Shown one piece after another: positions 1-7,644 of a stretch of 7,644 nucleotides of DNA. The stretch's first letter is position 1. The number at the start of each line of letters is the position of its first letter. The position numbers and the translations under genes are program-made. Origin of the DNA: Nitrospinota bacterium. Its GTDB lineage: Bacteria; Tectomicrobia; Entotheonellia; J063. The stretch covers positions 1-7,644 of the forward strand of contig RFHZ01000530.1 in assembly GCA_003696125.1 (NCBI GenBank), given 5' to 3'. Under the pieces are notes generated by a model, which made no database searches, was not told the DNA's origin, and saw only the letters and a program-made list of their open reading frames with translations.

Positions 1-572
1 CCGCCTCACCTGCCGATATCCGCCATAAACCCGGCAGCGTGGGAAAGCCCTTGCTGTTCTCTTCCGTGCGCATCGTGGGAGAGGAGGGAAGGGAGCAGGG
101 ACCAGGAGAGATCGGGGAGATCGTTGTCAGCGGTCCTACTGTGATGCAAGGCTACTACAAGCAGGAGCAGGCGACCGCAGCGGTACTGCGGGACGGAGAG
201 CTGTACACCGGGGATCTGGGGTACAGGGATGAAGAGGGAGACCTCTGGGTCGTCCAGCGACGTGCCGATCTGATCATCACCGGGGGAGAAAACGTGTACC
301 CGGCAGAAGTGGAGCAGATCATGCTTTCTCATCCGGCAGTGAAGGCGGTCTGCGTGGTCGGCGTAGAAGACGAAGAGTGGGGACAACGGGTAGCTGCCGC
401 CGTAGTGGTGCAGGAAGACACGCCGGTGACCGAAACCGAACTTCTCCGCTTTTGTGCAACACGGTTGGCCGGCTATAAACTCCCCCGTCTCCTTCGCCTG
501 GTCGATTCTCTTCCCCAGACCCCTTCCGGCAAGGTACGCCGGGAAGCGGTAAAGGCATTATTTTCAGCCTGA
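1..572 (+). CDS. menE: Acyl-CoA synthetase (AMP-forming), probable o-succinylbenzoate-CoA ligase MenE, C-terminal part
   Basis: This is the 3' end of a gene that begins upstream of the window; the frame is open from base 3 and ends at TGA 570-572, giving 189 residues. Enzymes of this ANL family activate a carboxylic acid with ATP and then transfer it to CoA; MenE does this for o-succinylbenzoate in menaquinone synthesis in the cytoplasm. Visible motifs, in order, are KPGSVGKPL, the TGDLGY block with the ATP-ribose aspartate, the hinge block RRADLIITGGENVYPAEVE, and near the end PQTPSGKVRR with the A10 lysine. The hinge block and the short tail after A10 look most like MenE, but a different medium- or long-chain acyl-CoA ligase is possible because the substrate-binding N-terminal domain is not in view. 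A GTG at 39 is internal and not a start. The gene converges on the peptidase gene with a 76-base gap and no clear terminator. Confidence 0.7.
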   Translation, partial: ASPADIRHKPGSVGKPLLFSSVRIVGEEGREQGPGEIGEIVVSGPTVMQGYYKQEQATAAVLRDGELYTGDLGYRDEEGDLWVVQRRADLIITGGENVYPAEVEQIMLSHPAVKAVCVVGVEDEEWGQRVAAAVVVQEDTPVTETELLRFCATRLAGYKLPRLLRLVDSLPQTPSGKVRREAVKALFSA

Positions 573-648: not shown

Positions 649-1383
649 TCAGACCTCAGCCAGAAGTTCCCGGATCTTCCCTTTCGTGATCGGACCGGCA
701 ATCCCATCCACCTGCAACCCATGTCTGCGCTGGAACTTCCGTACCGCCTCTTTCGTCTTTTCCCCGTAGATGCCATCGACCACCAGACGGGTGCGCAGGA
801 GTTTGTTCAAGGAGGCCTGAAGCCACCTGATCTCCTCTTCCTGTCTTTGGGCACGGGTAAGGCCAGCGCGATTCCCGATTTCCTCTTTCATGGCCCGGGC
901 CATGGCCGCATATCCATGCTGGGCCCTGTACTCCTCCCAGCGCTCCTCCCGAAACTCATAGTGCCAGCACTCCGGTCCGGTCAGGGTCTCGACAATATGG
1001 GTCCATCCATGCCGGTTCAGCAACTCCCGGACCCGCCTATGACCGATGCCGGTATCAAAGGCATCGATATCGATGGCGCGAGCCGCCTCGTGAACACTGG
1101 AACAGGAGGGGGGACTGAAGGCCGATTTCCGGCCGAGCTTCCAGTCTTCGTGTGCCTTCTGTTGCTGGGAAGCAGAACGGAACATGTCGCTGATATAGAG
1201 ATGCCCCCCTTCGCGCACGATATCCTGGTAGACTCTCTGTAAAGCCACGGCTGCCGGTTCAACCAGCTTGGCCATCCGCCGGGGTAACGGGTCCCCTTTC
1301 CGGCCGTAGATGCCGGGAACCCGCACCTTGACCACGCCTTGTAACCGCTCATCTGCACCGAGAATCTCACATCTCATCTCCAT
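649..1383 (-). CDS. M15-type D,D-/L,D-carboxypeptidase-like zinc peptidase with C-terminal peptidoglycan-binding domain
   Basis: This is a complete 244-residue protein starting at ATG 1383-1381, with AGGAG at 1394-1390 six bases upstream. Residues about 35-145 form a peptidase M15 (VanY/YcbK-like) domain. The SxHxxxxAxD motif gives zinc ligands His98 and Asp105, and ECWHYEF gives candidate catalytic Glu138 and zinc ligand His141. Residues about 183-241 are a PG_binding_1 domain with the repeated VDGIYG...VDGIAG pattern and the FQRRHGL core. The family trims peptide cross-bridges or stem peptides of peptidoglycan. I see no signal peptide or membrane helix at the N-terminus, so export is unexplained; phage-type endolysins have a similar domain mix and also lack a signal. 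The gene stands alone between a convergent and a divergent neighbour, so context adds nothing about its role. It has its own candidate promoter and a leader hairpin. Confidence 0.88.
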   Translation of the reverse strand: MEMRCEILGADERLQGVVKVRVPGIYGRKGDPLPRRMAKLVEPAAVALQRVYQDIVREGGHLYISDMFRSASQQQKAHEDWKLGRKSAFSPPSCSSVHEAARAIDIDAFDTGIGHRRVRELLNRHGWTHIVETLTGPECWHYEFREERWEEYRAQHGYAAMARAMKEEIGNRAGLTRAQRQEEEIRWLQASLNKLLRTRLVVDGIYGEKTKEAVRKFQRRHGLQVDGIAGPITKGKIRELLAEV

Positions 1384-1734: not shown

Positions 1735-1763
1735 TTGACAACGCGACCGAGATGGCTTACAGT
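1735..1763 (+). promoter_or_regulatory. Candidate sigma-70-type promoter of the five-gene operon
   Basis: A consensus -35 box TTGACA (1735-1740) is followed by exactly 17 bases and TACAGT (1758-1763), which matches TATAAT at four of six positions. Transcription would start near 1770, about 57 bases before the first start codon. It is the best plus-strand promoter match that I see upstream of the operon. Confidence 0.65.
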
Positions 1764-1826: not shown

Positions 1827-2831
1827 ATGAGTGATATCCCGAAATTTGTGCACATTTACGAACAGGGTCCCCGGGAAGGATTTCAGATCGAAAGCGCCAT
1901 GATCAAGACCGAGGACAAGGTGCGATTCATCGATGCCCTCTCGGAGACCGGGGTGAAACGAATTCAGATCACCTCCTTTGTCAGCCCTAAATGGGTACCG
2001 CAGATGGCAGATGCGGATGAGGTCTGTGCCCGTTTTACCCCCAAGCCGGGTGTGGCCTATACGGCACTGGCCCTCAACGAGAAAGGCCGGGAACGGATGC
2101 GGAAATGGGCGCACAAGCTCACCATCGAGGATGAAGCCCGCAGCCTGATCTGGGCCACGGACGAGTTTTCGCTGCGCAATAACAACCGTACCCGCCAGGA
2201 ACTCCTCTCCTGGATCCCGGAACGGGCAAAAAAGGCGAAGGAGGCTGGAGCCAAAGAAGCCACGATCGGGGCAGGAGCAGCCTTCGGCTGTAACTTCCAC
2301 GGGGAGGTGCCGCTGGAAGAGCTCCTCTGGGTCCTGGAACAGCAGTACAACATCTGGACCGAGGCAGGGCTTCGGGTGACCGGTCTCAGCCTGGCCGATA
2401 CCATGGGCTGGGCCATGCCCTGGCAGATCAAGCGCACCCTGGGGGCGATCCGGGAGAAGTGGCCGGAGATCACCAACATCTCCCTCCACCTCCACGATAC
2501 GCGCGGCATGGGCATTGCCAACTTCATGGCCGGACTGGAAATGGGGGTGTCGCACTTCGATGCCTGCTGCGGCGGGTTGGGAGGCTGTCCGTACAGCGGG
2601 AACGGACAGGCGGCCGGCAACGTCTGCACCGAGGACCTCGTCTTCCTCTGCCAGGAGATGGGGATCGAGACCGGGATCGATCTGGATGCCATGATCGAAT
2701 GCGCCAAGATGGCGGAACAGATCGTCGGGCATGTCCTTCCTGGTCACCTCTACAAGGCCCTGGGTCTGCCCCGCAAGGGGACCAAGCTCCACGAGCTGTA
2801 CAACGCGCAAAAACTCGGCGCCAAGGCATAG
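1827..2831 (+). CDS. HMG-CoA-lyase-like enzyme (DRE-TIM metallolyase), candidate citramalyl-CoA/HMG-CoA-type lyase
   Basis: The 334-residue product is a full-length TIM-barrel lyase of the HMGL-like family, in which members cleave 3-hydroxy-3-methylacyl-CoA to acetyl-CoA and a keto acid in the cytoplasm. Evidence: GPREGFQ at 14-20 with Arg16; SFVSPKWVPQM at 50-60, nearly identical to classical HMG-CoA lyase; HLHD at 221-224 supplying metal ligands His221 and His223; and the GLGGCPY loop with Cys254, followed by Asn265. Two acidic active-site positions differ from the classical enzyme: the metal-binding Asp (human Asp42) is Glu17, and the position of human Glu72 appears to be Gln47. The cysteine loop is also two residues longer. 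This suggests a substrate other than HMG-CoA, such as citramalyl-CoA. The ATG at 1827 is preferred over GTG 1824 because of ribosome-site spacing. It is the first gene of the operon, nine bases before the next. Confidence 0.85.
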   Translation: MSDIPKFVHIYEQGPREGFQIESAMIKTEDKVRFIDALSETGVKRIQITSFVSPKWVPQMADADEVCARFTPKPGVAYTALALNEKGRERMRKWAHKLTIEDEARSLIWATDEFSLRNNNRTRQELLSWIPERAKKAKEAGAKEATIGAGAAFGCNFHGEVPLEELLWVLEQQYNIWTEAGLRVTGLSLADTMGWAMPWQIKRTLGAIREKWPEITNISLHLHDTRGMGIANFMAGLEMGVSHFDACCGGLGGCPYSGNGQAAGNVCTEDLVFLCQEMGIETGIDLDAMIECAKMAEQIVGHVLPGHLYKALGLPRKGTKLHELYNAQKLGAKA

Positions 2832-2840
2832 GAGCGAGGG

Positions 2841-4034
2841 ATGGAAGGAGCACTGGCCGGTATCCGGGTGCTCGATCTGACCCACTATATCGCGGGACCG
2901 TTCTGTACCCGCCTCCTGGCCGATCATGGGGCCGAAGTGATCAAGATCGAAAAGCCGGGAGAAGGGGAAGGGGCCAGGAGGATGGGACCGTTTGTCGGGG
3001 ATGACCCCCATCCGGAAAAGAGTATCCCCTTCCTCTATCTCAACTGGAACAAGAAAGGGATCACGCTGAATCTCAAGGCCGAACGGGGACGGGAGCTCTT
3101 CCGTGCCCTGGTCCGGGAAGCGGATGTGCTGGTGGAAAACTTCGAGCCGCGGGTGATGCCGGGCCTCGGTCTCTCCTACACCGAGCTCCAGCAGATCAAT
3201 CCCGCTCTCATCATGACCTCTATCTCCAACTTCGGTCAGACCGGTCCCTACCGCGACTACAAGGCGCAGGACCTGATCCTCTATGCCATGAGCGGTATCA
3301 TGAGCATCAGCGGGAGACAGGACCGGGAGCCGATCAAGCATGGGCTCTTCCAGGCCCAGTACGCCGGGGGGATAAACGGGGCCCTGACCACGGTCCTGGC
3401 CCTGTACATCCGCGAGCTGTGGGGCAGGGGACAGCATATCGATGTCTCCATCGCCGAATGCCTCACCTCAGAACTCGTCCTGGCCCTCCCCTACTACACC
3501 TATACCGGTGGGGTCCAGGGACGGATGCCCCCCCAGGGAGGAGCCTTCGGCAACATCATGCCCTGCCAGGATGGGTACGTGGTGGCCCAGATGGGGGTGG
3601 GAACCAGGTGGGAGGATTTTGTGGATTTCCTCGATATTCCGGAGTTGCGGGATCCCAAGTTCGCCACGGCCGAGGGACGCATCCGGCATGGAGCCGAACT
3701 CGATGCCCTGCTCGTAGAAAAATTCCGGAAGATGAAGAAGTGGGATCTCTATCATACCGCCTCCCAACGCCGCTTCCTCTTCGGAGTCGTGCAGGACCCT
3801 GCCGAGCTGTCCCGCTGTCCCCACCTGGAAGCGCGTAACTTCTTCCGGGAGATCACGCATCAGGTGGTCGGATCGCTCCGCTATCCGGCTGAGCTCTTCA
3901 AGATGACCGAAACCCCGGCGCAATTCAGACGAGGAGCACCCCTGCTCGGTGAACACAACGAGGAAATCTACGAAGGACTCCTCGGCCTGTCCGCATCAGA
4001 GAGAGAACAACTGCAGGCAGAAGGGGTGATCTAG
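2841..4034 (+). CDS. Class III (CaiB/BaiF) CoA transferase, subunit with Gln in place of the catalytic Asp
   Basis: The 397-residue protein has the usual length of family III CoA transferases, which move CoA between carboxylic acids through an enzyme-bound aspartyl intermediate. Family signatures are LAGIRVLDLTHYIAGP near the N-terminus, ADHGAEVIKIEKP (28-39), LNWNKKGITLNL (67-78), SNFGQTGPY (129-137), WGRGQHIDVSI (194-204) and the C-terminal PLLGEHN. The catalytic Asp normally sits just before a glycine pair (D-x-x-G-G); here that position is Gln173 in QAQYAGG, with no Asp beside it. It is therefore probably a non-catalytic or altered partner of the next protein, which keeps the Asp. Succinyl-CoA:malate and benzylsuccinate CoA transferases are known to use two different CaiB subunits. 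ATG 2841 follows the previous stop by nine bases, with GGAG at 2831-2834. Substrate unknown. Confidence 0.9.
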   Translation: MEGALAGIRVLDLTHYIAGPFCTRLLADHGAEVIKIEKPGEGEGARRMGPFVGDDPHPEKSIPFLYLNWNKKGITLNLKAERGRELFRALVREADVLVENFEPRVMPGLGLSYTELQQINPALIMTSISNFGQTGPYRDYKAQDLILYAMSGIMSISGRQDREPIKHGLFQAQYAGGINGALTTVLALYIRELWGRGQHIDVSIAECLTSELVLALPYYTYTGGVQGRMPPQGGAFGNIMPCQDGYVVAQMGVGTRWEDFVDFLDIPELRDPKFATAEGRIRHGAELDALLVEKFRKMKKWDLYHTASQRRFLFGVVQDPAELSRCPHLEARNFFREITHQVVGSLRYPAELFKMTETPAQFRRGAPLLGEHNEEIYEGLLGLSASEREQLQAEGVI

Positions 4035-4040
4035 AGGAGG
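4034..4040 (+). promoter_or_regulatory. Strong ribosome-binding site overlapping the upstream stop codon
   Basis: GAGGAGG (4034-4040) begins on the last base of the TAG stop of the preceding gene and lies four bases before GTG 4045. It supports the GTG start, since the first in-frame ATG comes about 30 codons later and would remove the N-terminal CaiB signature. Confidence 0.75.
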
Positions 4041-4044
4041 CAAG

Positions 4045-5556
4045 GTGTATATAGAACAGGCACAACCACTGGCCGGTATCCGTATCCTCGATTCGACCTA
4101 TGTCTATGCCCTCCCCTATGCGGCCGGGCTGATGGCCGATCTCGGGGCTGAGGTGATCAAGATCGAAGCCTGCCGCCACCCGGATATTGTCCGGGTAGGA
4201 GGGATCGCTTCGGTCTTCCCGGAAAACCGGGTAGGGGAAAGGTTTTGGGAACAGGGGGGAACGTTTCACACCCTGAATCGGGGGAAGCGTTCCCTGACCC
4301 TGGACCTGAACCACCCGGCCGGTCAGGAAATCTTCAAAAGATTGGTTGCCATCAGCGATATCGTGCTGGAGAACTTCACGCCGCGCGTGATGCGGAAATG
4401 GGGTCTCGATTATCCCAACCTGAAGGCGATCAAGCCGGATATCATCATGCTCTCCAACACCGGCTACGGACACGGTGGTCCCTATTCCCACTACGGGAGT
4501 CAGGCCACCTCGCTGGAGGCAACACAGGGGACAGCCTATCTGACCGGCTATATCGACGGTCCCCCGGCCAAGGCCGGCTTTGCCTACACCGATTTCCTCG
4601 CCTGCTGGACCGCCCTCTTTGCCCTGTTTACCGCCCTGCTCTACCGCAGGCGGACCGGTAAGGGACAGTGGATCGATCTCGGCATGTACCAGCTCGGGGT
4701 CGCCTTTATCGGGGAGGCGGTGATCGATTATATGGTGAATGGGGCTCCAGGAGGGACAGAGGGACAGAGGCACAGAGGCACAGAGGGACAAAGGGACAAA
4801 GGGACAAAGGCACAAAGGCACGAGGGAGAAGAGGCACAAAGGGGCGAGAGGGGAGGCAACGAGTCCCAGCCTGGTCGAAGGGTACAGATGCGCCTGGGGA
4901 ACCGGCATCCCACCCAGGCACCGTACGGTTGCTACCGGTGTCGAGGCCGGGATCGCTGGATCACCGTTGCCATCTCTGATACAGCGGAATGGGAGGCCCT
5001 CTGTAAGACCATCGGCCATCCCGAACTCCTGCAGGACAGCCGGCTGCAAGACGCACAGGGTCGCTGGAAACACCATGACGAGCTCGATCGCATCATCGAG
5101 TCCTGGACCAGGGAGCAGGACCCTTATGCAGCGATGCACCGGCTGCAGGAGGCCGGTGTGCCGGCCGGGGTGGTCATGGATACACGCGATCTGCTTCGCG
5201 ATCCGCATCTGAAGGCACGCGGCTTCTTTGAGATGGTGGAACAGGCCCCGAGTAGCGAAGCGGGAAAACGGCCGGTGATCGGGAGACCGTGGAAGCTCTC
5301 CGCCACCCCGGTACGCATCCGCCGGGCCGCACCGACCTTTGGACAGGATAACGATTATGTGCTGAAAGAGCTCCTGCAGATGCCGGATGAGGAGATCGAG
5401 CGGCTGAGAGGAGAGGGGATCATCGGGGAAAAACCGGCCGGTCTCACCCCTCCCCGCCTCCTCTCTCCTGCAGAGATGGTGCGCCTGGGCCGCTTTGCCT
5501 ATCATGATCCGGAGTACCGGAAAAACTGTGGGATAGACGAGAAGGAGAAGGAGTAA
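4045..5556 (+). CDS. Class III (CaiB/BaiF) CoA transferase, catalytic-Asp subunit with octamer-encoded insertion
   Basis: The 503-residue protein is about 100 residues longer than most of its family. Core signatures are LAGIRILD (9-16), DLGAEVIKIE (32-41), TLNRGKRSLTLDL (76-88), GYGHGGPY (140-147) and TGKGQWIDLGM (204-214). The expected catalytic aspartate is Asp183 in YTDFLACW, so this is likely the active member of the pair with the preceding gene. Two additions explain the length. Residues about 236-281, between VNGAP and RLGNRHP, form a charged insertion built from 8-residue units (GTEGQRHR, GTEGQRDK, GTKAQRHE, GEEAQRGE) encoded by a DNA octamer repeat. Residues about 461-503 extend past the normal family end (RGEGII) with a polar tail. 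The start is GTG 4045 with GAGGAGG four bases upstream. The stop lies three bases before the next gene, suggesting translational coupling. Substrate unknown, probably a dicarboxylate or its CoA ester. Confidence 0.9.
   Translation: MYIEQAQPLAGIRILDSTYVYALPYAAGLMADLGAEVIKIEACRHPDIVRVGGIASVFPENRVGERFWEQGGTFHTLNRGKRSLTLDLNHPAGQEIFKRLVAISDIVLENFTPRVMRKWGLDYPNLKAIKPDIIMLSNTGYGHGGPYSHYGSQATSLEATQGTAYLTGYIDGPPAKAGFAYTDFLACWTALFALFTALLYRRRTGKGQWIDLGMYQLGVAFIGEAVIDYMVNGAPGGTEGQRHRGTEGQRDKGTKAQRHEGEEAQRGERGGNESQPGRRVQMRLGNRHPTQAPYGCYRCRGRDRWITVAISDTAEWEALCKTIGHPELLQDSRLQDAQGRWKHHDELDRIIESWTREQDPYAAMHRLQEAGVPAGVVMDTRDLLRDPHLKARGFFEMVEQAPSSEAGKRPVIGRPWKLSATPVRIRRAAPTFGQDNDYVLKELLQMPDEEIERLRGEGIIGEKPAGLTPPRLLSPAEMVRLGRFAYHDPEYRKNCGIDEKEKE
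4752..4847 (+). repeat. In-frame octamer tandem repeat AGG(G/C)ACA(G/A)
   Basis: Eight uninterrupted 8-base units run from 4752 to 4815: two AGGGACAG, two AGGCACAG, three AGGGACAA and one AGGCACAA. Decayed units continue to 4847, including a 7-base unit at 4816-4822. Three octamers equal eight codons, so the array encodes an 8-residue repeat without interrupting the frame. The plus strand has no T at all from 4747 to 4863 (117 bases). All three forward frames stay open across the array. It looks like a simple-sequence expansion rather than a transposon; no target duplication or terminal repeats are apparent. Confidence 0.92.
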
Positions 5557-5559
5557 GCC

Positions 5560-6099
5560 ATGACAGAACCGGAAACCTATATCACCGACGAAGTACGGGC
5601 CCTCATCGGGAAAGAATCCCCTCCCATCACCGCCTTTCATGCGGTGGAGAGTAGCGAGGTGCGTCGCTTCATCCAGGCCATCATGGATGACGATCCGATC
5701 TACTGGGATGCGGAGTACGCCAAGAAGACCAAATATGGGACGGTGGTGGCTCCTCCCCTCTTCCCCGAGATCATGTTCCGCCGGGAGCCGGGAACCCCAG
5801 ACCCGCTAGCAGAGGCGGCCACCAATCCCGACTTTGATGGGAGTGGAGGAGGACAGGGAACCGGTCTTCCCCCCGTGCCCTTAAAAGGGCTTCCCCGTCT
5901 TCTCAACGGGGGTAGCGAGGTCGAGATATACAAACTCGCCGCCTTAGGAGACCGCATAACGGCCAGGAGCAAGTACGTCGATATCTACGAAAAGCGGGGA
6001 CGCTCCGGGCTCATGGTCTTTATCATCACCGAAACCACGTACACCAACCAGAACGGAGAGGTGTTGCTTATCAAACGCCAGACCACCATCCGTCGCTAA
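5560..6099 (+). CDS. MaoC-family hotdog protein, N-terminal-type (FAS1-DH/MaoC_dehydrat_N) subunit lacking the catalytic His
   Basis: The 179-residue protein resembles the N-terminal hotdog domain of double-hotdog enoyl-CoA hydratases. Residues 34-68 carry the hydratase-like pattern VRRFIQAIMDDDPIYWD, then AEYAKK, then VVAPPLFP, and residues 118-138 begin the second half (GGSEVEIY, DRITARSKY) ahead of the strand-rich end ITETTYTN. In active MaoC enzymes the loop reads D-x4-H. Here the Asp equivalent is present (Asp43) but the His position is Tyr48, as is common in the structural, non-catalytic domain. It should therefore pair with the product of the next gene to make a complete hydratase. Residues about 76-115 are a Gly/Pro-rich stretch. 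ATG 5560 has AAGGAG at 5548-5553, six bases upstream and inside the end of the previous gene. Confidence 0.85.
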   Translation: MTEPETYITDEVRALIGKESPPITAFHAVESSEVRRFIQAIMDDDPIYWDAEYAKKTKYGTVVAPPLFPEIMFRREPGTPDPLAEAATNPDFDGSGGGQGTGLPPVPLKGLPRLLNGGSEVEIYKLAALGDRITARSKYVDIYEKRGRSGLMVFIITETTYTNQNGEVLLIKRQTTIRR

Positions 6100-6113
6100 G
6101 AGGAGGAGAGGGG

Positions 6114-6605
6114 ATGGGTACAGCAACCAAGAAAAAACAGCTCTACTACGAGGATGTCGAGGTAGGGATGGAGATCCCTCCGCTGGTGAAGGGGCCGATG
6201 ACCCCCTGTCATCTGATGCGCTGGTCTGCAGCCATGGAAAACTGGCACCGGATCCATTACGACTGGCATTATGCGGTGGAACATGATAAGCTACCGGAGC
6301 GACTGGTGAACGGATCCTGGAAACAGCAGGTCCTGGTGCAGTTGATGAAGGACTGGCTCGGTGAAGAGGGCTGGCTCTGGAAGATCTCCTACCAGTTCCG
6401 GGGCATGGACCCGGTCTGGTCTACACTCACCGTGTGGGGACGGGTGGTGAACAAGTACGAGAAGGACGGACTCGGCTTTGTGGAGTGCGAAATCGGGATC
6501 CGCAATCAGGATGGCCAGGAAGGGACGCCGGGGACGGCGGTCGGTGTGCTCCCCTTACGCGGGGGACGCAAGGTTCCCTATCCCTTTGTCCCGCCCGGAA
6601 CCTGA
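6114..6605 (+). CDS. MaoC-family hotdog protein, probable catalytic hydratase subunit
   Basis: The 163-residue protein opens with the MaoC-type sequence LYYEDVEVGMEIPPL (10-24). It has the active-site loop ENWHRIHYDWHYA (42-54), followed by LPERLVNGSW (60-69) where the family usually has a conserved small-residue turn, and the hotdog strands FRGMDPVW and LTVWGRVV. His48 aligns with the catalytic His of R-specific enoyl-CoA hydratases; the residue five positions earlier, normally Asp, is Asn43. The enzyme is thus either a variant hydratase or needs the partner encoded just upstream to complete the site. Hydration of an enoyl-CoA before cleavage by the operon's lyase is the natural inferred role. 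ATG 6114 has AGGAGG at 6101-6106, seven bases upstream; the gap to the previous gene is 14 bases. Confidence 0.85.
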   Translation: MGTATKKKQLYYEDVEVGMEIPPLVKGPMTPCHLMRWSAAMENWHRIHYDWHYAVEHDKLPERLVNGSWKQQVLVQLMKDWLGEEGWLWKISYQFRGMDPVWSTLTVWGRVVNKYEKDGLGFVECEIGIRNQDGQEGTPGTAVGVLPLRGGRKVPYPFVPPGT

Positions 6606-6688: not shown

Positions 6689-7644
6689 GTGTATAGACTG
6701 ATCCGTATCTGGTGGGTAGCGGTACTGCTGGTGGTGATCTGGCCGGGAGAAAAGGGGCTTGTCTCTGCCGGCCGGCCCGACTTCCCCGTCTCTGTGGTGG
6801 TGAGCAAGGTGGTGGAGCAGCCGATTGTCGGAACCCTGAAGACAGTGGGAACGGTCGAACCGCTCATCACCACCACCTTAAGTGCAGAGATTGCCGGTCT
6901 GGTCGAACGCTTCGACCTCCACGCCGGGGAGTACGTGGAGAAGAACAAGACGGTGATCTGCCAGTTGCGTAACACCAGCCTGCGCATCTCGCTTCGAGAG
7001 GCAGAGGCCATGCTGGCCAGGGCCCGGGCCGAAGCGGAGAAGCTCAAGCGGGGACTGCGACCAGAAGAGGTTGCGGAGCGTCGCGCCCGGGTCAAGGAAC
7101 GGGAAGCCCTGCTCAAGAAGTTTGCCGATGACCTGGAACGGGCCAAGAACCTCTTCCAGAAACGGGTGATCAGCCGCTCCGACTACATACAGGCCGAGAG
7201 TAACTACCTGGCAGCCACCGCCCAACTGGAGCAGGCGACCCAGCAGTTCCGTCTGGCCGAACAGGGAACCCGCAAAGAGGATATTGCGGCCGCAGAGGCA
7301 GAGGTGCAGCGCATGCAGGCCAATGTCGATCGCATCCGGGAGGATCTGCGGAAGACAACCATCCGTTCTCCTATCTCCGGCTTCCTGGTGCGCAAGTACC
7401 TGGAGGTCGGGCAATGGGTGGAAAGAGGAGGGAAAGTGGCCGAGATCATCGATCTGGAGACCGTGCTGGTGCGGGTAGGGGTCAATGAGCGCGATATCCG
7501 TCATCTGGCCGTAGGGGACAGGGCGGTCCTGACCGTGGATGCCTACCCGGAAGAGGAATTTCAGGGGAAGATCCGGTATATCATCCCCCAGGCCGACCCG
7601 ACCAGCCGCAACTTTCCGGTCCAGATCGCCGTGCAGAACACCCC
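6689..7644 (+). CDS. HlyD/RND-type periplasmic adaptor (membrane fusion protein), 3' end beyond the window
   Basis: The frame starts at GTG 6689, preceded by GGAAGGGGAG ending about five bases upstream, and stays open to the window edge (318 full codons). Residues 1-27 look like a signal peptide: basic MYRLIR, hydrophobic WWVAVLLVVIW, and a VSA cleavage-type site. Residues about 55-93 are the first half of the lipoyl domain (TVEPLITTTLSAEIAG, then AGEYVEKN). Residues about 100-222 are a long charged heptad-rich helical hairpin (coiled coil). Residues about 223-255 are the second lipoyl half (TTIRSPISGFLVRKYLEVGQ). From about 258 a beta-barrel begins (VRVGVNERDIRHLAVGD). Such proteins link an inner-membrane pump to an outer-membrane channel. 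The 83-base gap and unrelated function suggest a separate unit from the catabolic operon, although read-through is possible because no strong terminator is seen. A pump gene would be expected next. Confidence 0.9.
   Translation, partial: MYRLIRIWWVAVLLVVIWPGEKGLVSAGRPDFPVSVVVSKVVEQPIVGTLKTVGTVEPLITTTLSAEIAGLVERFDLHAGEYVEKNKTVICQLRNTSLRISLREAEAMLARARAEAEKLKRGLRPEEVAERRARVKEREALLKKFADDLERAKNLFQKRVISRSDYIQAESNYLAATAQLEQATQQFRLAEQGTRKEDIAAAEAEVQRMQANVDRIREDLRKTTIRSPISGFLVRKYLEVGQWVERGGKVAEIIDLETVLVRVGVNERDIRHLAVGDRAVLTVDAYPEEEFQGKIRYIIPQADPTSRNFPVQIAVQNT

Follow-up and report, generated by a model that had tools for sequence, protein, structure and literature searches.

The locus considered here raises two questions: whether five closely spaced genes form a single metabolic route and, if so, which compound that route degrades. 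The genes lie on contig RFHZ01000530.1 of a Nitrospinota bacterium, analysed over 7,644 nucleotides (hereafter the window), and encode a lyase of the HMGL family (PF00682), two CaiB-type coenzyme A (CoA) transferases (CaiB1 and CaiB2) and two half-size MaoC-type proteins (MaoC-N, also called MaoN, and MaoC-C). The open reading frame (ORF) listing of the window agrees exactly with the original prediction in placing all five on the plus strand with successive gaps of 9, 10, 3 and 14 bases. That prediction had also proposed a route of activation, hydration and cleavage; the outline is upheld by family, active-site and synteny evidence, but the number of enzymes is corrected, since the five genes seem to specify three enzymes. 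Overall, the operon is probably a catabolic cassette of three enzymes and five subunits; its substrate would be a substituted C4-dicarboxylic acid, either unsaturated or hydroxylated, and its products acetyl-CoA and a 2-oxo acid.

The two CaiB genes most likely encode one two-subunit family III CoA-transferase, with CaiB1 as the catalytic subunit and CaiB2 as its partner. In an alignment with 9fn0_A and 4ed9, CaiB1 has Asp (D144, 3270-3272) at the catalytic position of family III CoA-transferases, and in the same column CaiB2 has Ala (A154, 4504-4506) and no Asp. In the benzylsuccinate CoA-transferase 9fn0, this column holds Asp in chain A and Gly in chain B; CaiB1 aligns with the Asp-bearing chain 9fn0_A and with 4ed9, and the best PDB match of CaiB2 is 9fn0_B, a benzylsuccinate CoA-transferase subunit. 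Additionally, orthologues of CaiB1 and CaiB2 are fused on plasmids of Variovorax sp. SRS16 (865 residues) and Diaphorobacter sp. HDW4B (846 residues). The N-terminal halves of the fused proteins are 45% and 36% identical to CaiB1, respectively, the C-terminal halves 41% and 38% identical to CaiB2, and the catalytic Asp is present in the N-terminal half only. In the tree, the four CaiB1 and the four CaiB2 proteins each make up a supported group (98/97 and 100/99, respectively). The internal order is identical in both groups, and they lie beside chain A and chain B of 9fn0, respectively, both chains being on long branches. Because of the pattern of Asp presence and absence, the fusions and the matching subtree order, the two proteins are best read as one heteromer, and two separate transferases were rejected.

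Similarly, MaoC-N and MaoC-C are concluded to form one two-subunit hydratase, with the predicted active-site motif in the second subunit. MaoC-C carries the motif N43-W-H-R-I-H-Y-D50 (6240-6263), and MaoC-N lacks the active-site His and has DDDPIYWD at the motif position. When profiles of the two MaoC-type families, made from the window proteins and their relatives, were searched against the PDB, the first match of the MaoN profile was the N-terminal domain of itaconyl-CoA hydratase (8khg/8huc; weak, 30.9 bits), and that of the MaoC profile was the C-terminal domain of itaconyl-CoA hydratase over HRIHYD (weak, 24.7 bits). A Pfam scan of the MaoC-C protein itself gave no match. Its AlphaFold model (mean predicted local distance difference test score, pLDDT, 76.6; loop around the motif poorly predicted) is structurally closest to the PhaJ1 R-hydratase (Z 13.2), HadB (12.1-12.4) and ChsH1-ChsH2 (11.7). 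MaoC-N matches the HadA model (1.7e-7), and HadA is the non-catalytic partner within HadAB. HadAB and ChsH1-ChsH2 share with the window two half-size hot-dog subunits with the catalytic motif in one, but the N-x-H-R-I-H-Y-D motif of the window is as in itaconyl-CoA hydratase. HadAB acts on substrates bound to acyl carrier protein and ChsH1-ChsH2 on steroids, unlike the proposed cassette.

The window lyase passes PRK05692, the subfamily model for 3-hydroxy-3-methylglutaryl-CoA (HMG-CoA) lyase (259.5 bits; cut-off, 246), and HMG-CoA lyases are its closest relatives of known structure. However, it departs from the canonical HMG-CoA lyase pattern, having neither R-D-G with its catalytic/metal Asp nor the short GCPYAPGASGN loop. 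It has R16-E17 (1872-1877) in place of R-D, an enlarged active-site loop (GGCPYSGNGQAAGN) and the motif DTMGWA, along with a catalytic-loop Cys (C254, 2586-2588). The Asp of R-D-G is essential in human HMG-CoA lyase, and a limited literature search found no report of Glu at this position (Asp42-to-Glu in the human enzyme). A motif survey of relatives from named genomes covered the best 79 (L021-L099). The window lyase and L021-L043 share R-E-G, a slightly variable DTMGWA motif and a Cys loop longer by at least two residues, whereas L044-L099 have R-D-G and a short loop as in HMG-CoA lyase; a lyase on a Caballeronia plasmid (L122) retains R-D-G and has a loop that is longer still. In the HMGL tree, the 16 sampled canonical sequences form one clade (100/100). 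On these characters, the window lyase is assigned to a distinct 'REG' HMGL subfamily (PREG[FM]Q) and not to the canonical HMG-CoA lyase type. The original prediction is corrected in that its HMGL-like lyase is not of the canonical type, its two CaiB transferases are most likely one enzyme, and its two MaoC proteins are the hot-dog halves of one hydratase, only the second having the motif.

By the terms of the original prediction, a lack of conservation of the gene set in other genomes would have refuted it, and conserved synteny had been proposed as a check. The check did not refute the prediction: all five parts are also linked in at least three unrelated bacteria, namely Rhodococcus sp. USK10, Diaphorobacter sp. 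HDW4B and Variovorax sp. SRS16, which rank 1-3 for CaiB2 among 72,556 plasmids. Because the set recurs in these three named bacteria, the five-part arrangement is beyond chance. In Rhodococcus the genes are separate, in the order HMGL-MaoN-MaoC-CaiB1-CaiB2-ACAD, and an acyl-CoA dehydrogenase (ACAD) accompanies the cassette in all three. The other neighbours are MmgE/PrpD, TctC binding proteins and thiamine pyrophosphate (TPP) enzymes of the acetolactate synthase/benzoylformate decarboxylase superfamily in Variovorax and Diaphorobacter, and a MatC/CitMHS transporter, a pyruvate dehydrogenase (PDH)-type dehydrogenase E1, LeuC (703 bits; cut-off, 560) and LeuD (172 bits; cut-off, 116) in Rhodococcus. 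A sister cassette is found in many Betaproteobacteria and one alphaproteobacterium. There, an AMP-forming ligase, TctC and Asp/Glu racemase-like proteins accompany HMGL-MaoN-MaoC, and the MaoC proteins linked to the ligase fall in a clade of their own (100/99). A search for the MaoC subfamily in 386 genomes across the domain gave no further case at orthologue-level score; nor did one in 394 genomes of a single class, which had no positive control and shows little. Gene content, subunit pairing, active-site residues and conserved linkage are read directly from these sequences.

From the same elements, we infer an order of reactions, a CoA donor and a substrate class. CaiB1 and CaiB2 would transfer CoA to the acid, with D144 of CaiB1 carrying the acyl group and succinyl-CoA as the probable donor. 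MaoC-N and MaoC-C would then hydrate the acyl-CoA to a tertiary alcohol, an R-substituted malyl-CoA, which the HMGL-type lyase would split by metal-dependent retro-aldol cleavage into acetyl-CoA and a 2-oxo acid. A methyl R would give pyruvate, and any other R a larger 2-oxo acid. Substituted C4-dicarboxylates of the itaconate, mesaconate or alkylmalate type are proposed because the cassette elsewhere adjoins ACAD with either MmgE/PrpD or LeuCD, along with proteins for dicarboxylate uptake and TPP enzymes that process 2-oxoacids. All characterised MmgE/PrpD enzymes have substrates with a 1,4-dicarboxylate backbone (PMC12290011). LeuCD and the 2-oxoacid enzymes fit alkylmalate substrates and a 2-oxo acid product, and, taken with MmgE/PrpD and the itaconate-cluster parallels described below, they point to CoA transfer, hydration and retro-aldol cleavage. 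The lack of an ACAD gene in the window suggests that the substrate is already unsaturated or hydroxylated.

Each part comes from a known family, and the general scheme is known as well. In Pseudomonas and Cupriavidus, the itaconate/methylsuccinate cluster (ict, ich, ccl, mcd and mmgE) encodes a transferase, a hydratase, a lyase, an ACAD and an MmgE/PrpD protein (PMC12290011). It shares with the window a CaiB transferase, a hydratase and a lyase yielding acetyl-CoA and a 2-oxo acid; ACAD and MmgE/PrpD are present as well in the Variovorax and Diaphorobacter relatives, which repeat its set of functions with another lyase family and a two-part transferase. In contrast to Ccl of that cluster, which is CitE-type, the window lyase is HMGL-type (PF00682); the window transferase is made up of one catalytic and one non-catalytic subunit, the hydratase is split in two genes, and mcd and mmgE are absent. 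BbsEF (9fn0) likewise has two different adjacent CaiB subunits with the catalytic Asp in one only, but the window CaiBs are distantly related to it (178 and 213 bits, long branches), the 7.6 kb window has no bss or bbs genes, and CoA transfer there would be followed by hydration of the MaoC type and cleavage of the HMGL type. HMG-CoA lyase (1ydo, 6nds, 2cw6) shares the PF00682 family, the catalytic Cys loop and the H-x-H motif, and differs from the window lyase, which has Glu for Asp in R-D-G, DTMGWA, at least two extra Cys-loop residues and a place outside the canonical clade. In Chloroflexus, the CaiB gene for succinyl-CoA:citramalate CoA-transferase lies beside that for an HMGL-like R-citramalyl-CoA lyase, with no hydratase in the pair; a search for a genome of the Chloroflexus type by means of TIGR04253, the 2-methylfumaryl-CoA isomerase model, gave no match over the cut-off. 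The five-gene set, which the original prediction did not recognise as a named pathway, is a variant of known modules that joins itaconate/methylsuccinate logic to a BbsEF-like transferase, and a limited literature search found no description of the combination, the fused transferase or the lyase subfamily.

Several observations weigh against a C4-dicarboxylate cassette. The substrate class is based on neighbour genes in other bacteria; the window contig stops after 7.6 kb and lacks all of these accessory neighbours, including the ACAD found with the Rhodococcus, Diaphorobacter and Variovorax cassettes. The matches to itaconyl-CoA hydratase (Ich) are short and low-scoring, about 24-31 bits, and the Variovorax MaoN is annotated as just 93 residues. 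The CaiB1 of Rhodococcus is an exception in having Glu at the catalytic Asp position, and an 8-bp tandem repeat adds about 45 residues to the window CaiB2 that are absent from all orthologues. In the HMGL tree, the lyases of the four five-part cassettes do not stay together as one clade (p-AU 0.038), and a single ancestor for all MaoC-linked lyases was rejected (one clade, p-AU 9.6e-7). Since the lyases of the two cassette versions do not form one clade, REG lyases and MaoN-MaoC pairs would have been joined repeatedly, or exchanged. REG-type lyases also occur in plasmid acyl-CoA carboxylase clusters of Roseobacteraceae (L151 7001-7960; L152 7001-7960), and the subfamily is therefore not specific to C4-dicarboxylates.

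These carboxylase clusters keep alive a route of the leucine/isoprenoid type, in which activation of an unsaturated 3-alkylglutaconic acid is followed by hydration to a 3-hydroxy-3-alkylglutaryl-CoA, from which the lyase would release acetyl-CoA together with acetoacetate or a longer 3-oxo acid. The match to the general HMG-CoA lyase model and the solved relatives noted above agree with such a route, and no second full-length HMGL was found in the window's genome. It is nevertheless unlikely: canonical lyases differ from the window lyase in having Asp for its Glu and no enlarged loop, class relatives of the window's genome use a canonical HMGL beside ACAD and enoyl-CoA hydratase (ECH) genes instead, the cassette has no carboxylase, and PrpD, LeuCD and the 2-oxoacid enzymes next to full cassettes elsewhere fit C4-dicarboxylates. 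Among C4-dicarboxylates, the substrate could be limited to the C5 acids itaconate, mesaconate, citraconate or citramalate, cleaved to acetyl-CoA and pyruvate, which would make the cassette a second itaconate/citramalate route, not orthologous to the first, whose R-citramalyl-CoA lyase is of the HMGL type. Itaconyl-CoA hydratase is the closest solved structure for both hydratase halves, the Variovorax and Diaphorobacter clusters parallel the itaconate/methylsuccinate cluster function by function, and the R-citramalyl-CoA lyase of Chloroflexus is HMGL-like. However, BbsEF is known for a bulky substrate, and the nearby TPP enzymes and dehydrogenase E1 suggest a 2-oxo acid that needs decarboxylation and is maybe larger than pyruvate, although pyruvate dehydrogenase would fit too; the narrower C5 form is doubtful. 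That the genes are chance neighbours in no single pathway, with CoA-transferases that act independently of each other and a pair of MaoC proteins that do not belong together, is highly improbable. CaiB genes are numerous in the window's genome and such families often cluster, but CaiB1 and CaiB2 are fused in two bacteria, their subtrees share the same order, and the Asp pattern and the recurrent five-part linkage also speak against chance.

Within the preferred C4-dicarboxylate reading, it may tentatively be proposed that the substrates are larger 2-substituted malic, succinic or itaconic acids, for instance 2-isopropylmalate or arylalkyl-succinates. The cassette would then belong to an undescribed catabolic route running citramalate/isopropylmalate synthase chemistry backwards via CoA esters. 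Its enzymes would be a CaiB transferase, either heteromeric or fused, a hydratase in two parts and a lyase of a new subfamily ('alkylmalyl-CoA lyase'), and the 2-oxo acid released with acetyl-CoA would subsequently be decarboxylated.

The features of the window are collected in Table 1. A purine-rich stretch resembling AAGGAG or GGAGG precedes each of the five starts, and third-position GC is strong in all five frames. The promoter match upstream of the lyase gene exists, but the 'one good promoter' of the original prediction is not significant by itself, since the number of sigma-70-like sites (4 observed; 2.0 +/- 1.7 in shuffles) is not above that in shuffles. No terminator-like site was found on the plus strand of the window, and an Rfam scan of the window gave no matches. 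The repeat within CaiB2, an 8-bp minisatellite, occurs on at least 10 other contigs of the same genome (31 matches, versus 0 for the reversed control), and residues 246-292 of the CaiB2 model are predicted to be disordered (pLDDT < 50), between folded halves.

Table 1. Features of the 7,644-nucleotide window
Feature	Position	Strand	Details
AMP-forming acyl-CoA ligase	3-569		C-terminal 189 residues, cut by contig start
Peptidoglycan-binding protein	649-1383	-	PF01471 domain; weak VanY-type peptidase match
Sigma-70-like promoter match	1735-1763	+	TTGACA-17-TACAGT; 10/12 matches
HMGL-like lyase gene	1827-2831	+	334 aa; PF00682, E 1.4e-34
CaiB1 gene	2841-4034	+	397 aa; PF02515 (CoA_transf_3), E 3.8e-100
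CaiB2 gene	4045-5556	+	503 aa; GTG start; PF02515 (CoA_transf_3), E 1.1e-104
8-bp tandem repeat	4751-4852	+	GAGGGACA/GAGGCACA; in frame inside CaiB2
MaoC-N (MaoN) gene	5560-6099	+	179 aa; PF13452 (FAS1_DH_region), E 2.6e-22
MaoC-C (MaoC) gene	6114-6605	+	163 aa; hot-dog hydratase by profile and predicted fold
HlyD/RND-type membrane fusion protein	6689-7642		runs off contig end

The ligase fragment at the contig start was considered as an activating enzyme and rejected, as an opposite-strand gene lies in between and its identity to the sister-cassette ligase is 36%. The product of that opposite-strand gene is possibly an endolysin-like cell-wall hydrolase. In the sister clusters L030 and L033-L042, the Asp/Glu racemase-like proteins are often two, and a lactonase-like protein and a GlcD-like oxidase are often present; these clusters look like an uncharacterised dicarboxylate pathway, with a possible maleate isomerase-like step. 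A Bacillota cluster (L022, L023, L027) encodes an electron transfer flavoprotein (ETF), CaiB, a REG-type lyase, ACAD, ECH, MmgE/PrpD, an FAA hydrolase, a gentisate dioxygenase-like cupin and an FAD monooxygenase, followed by an Asp-less CaiB and a second HMGL. It may represent a related route that connects with an aromatic pathway.

The cassette is thus common to an uncultured lineage, Actinomycetota and Betaproteobacteria, and one hydration-cleavage module would be coupled either to a CoA-transferase or to an AMP-forming ligase. The REG subfamily of HMGL proteins carries the annotation of HMG-CoA lyase, probably wrongly.

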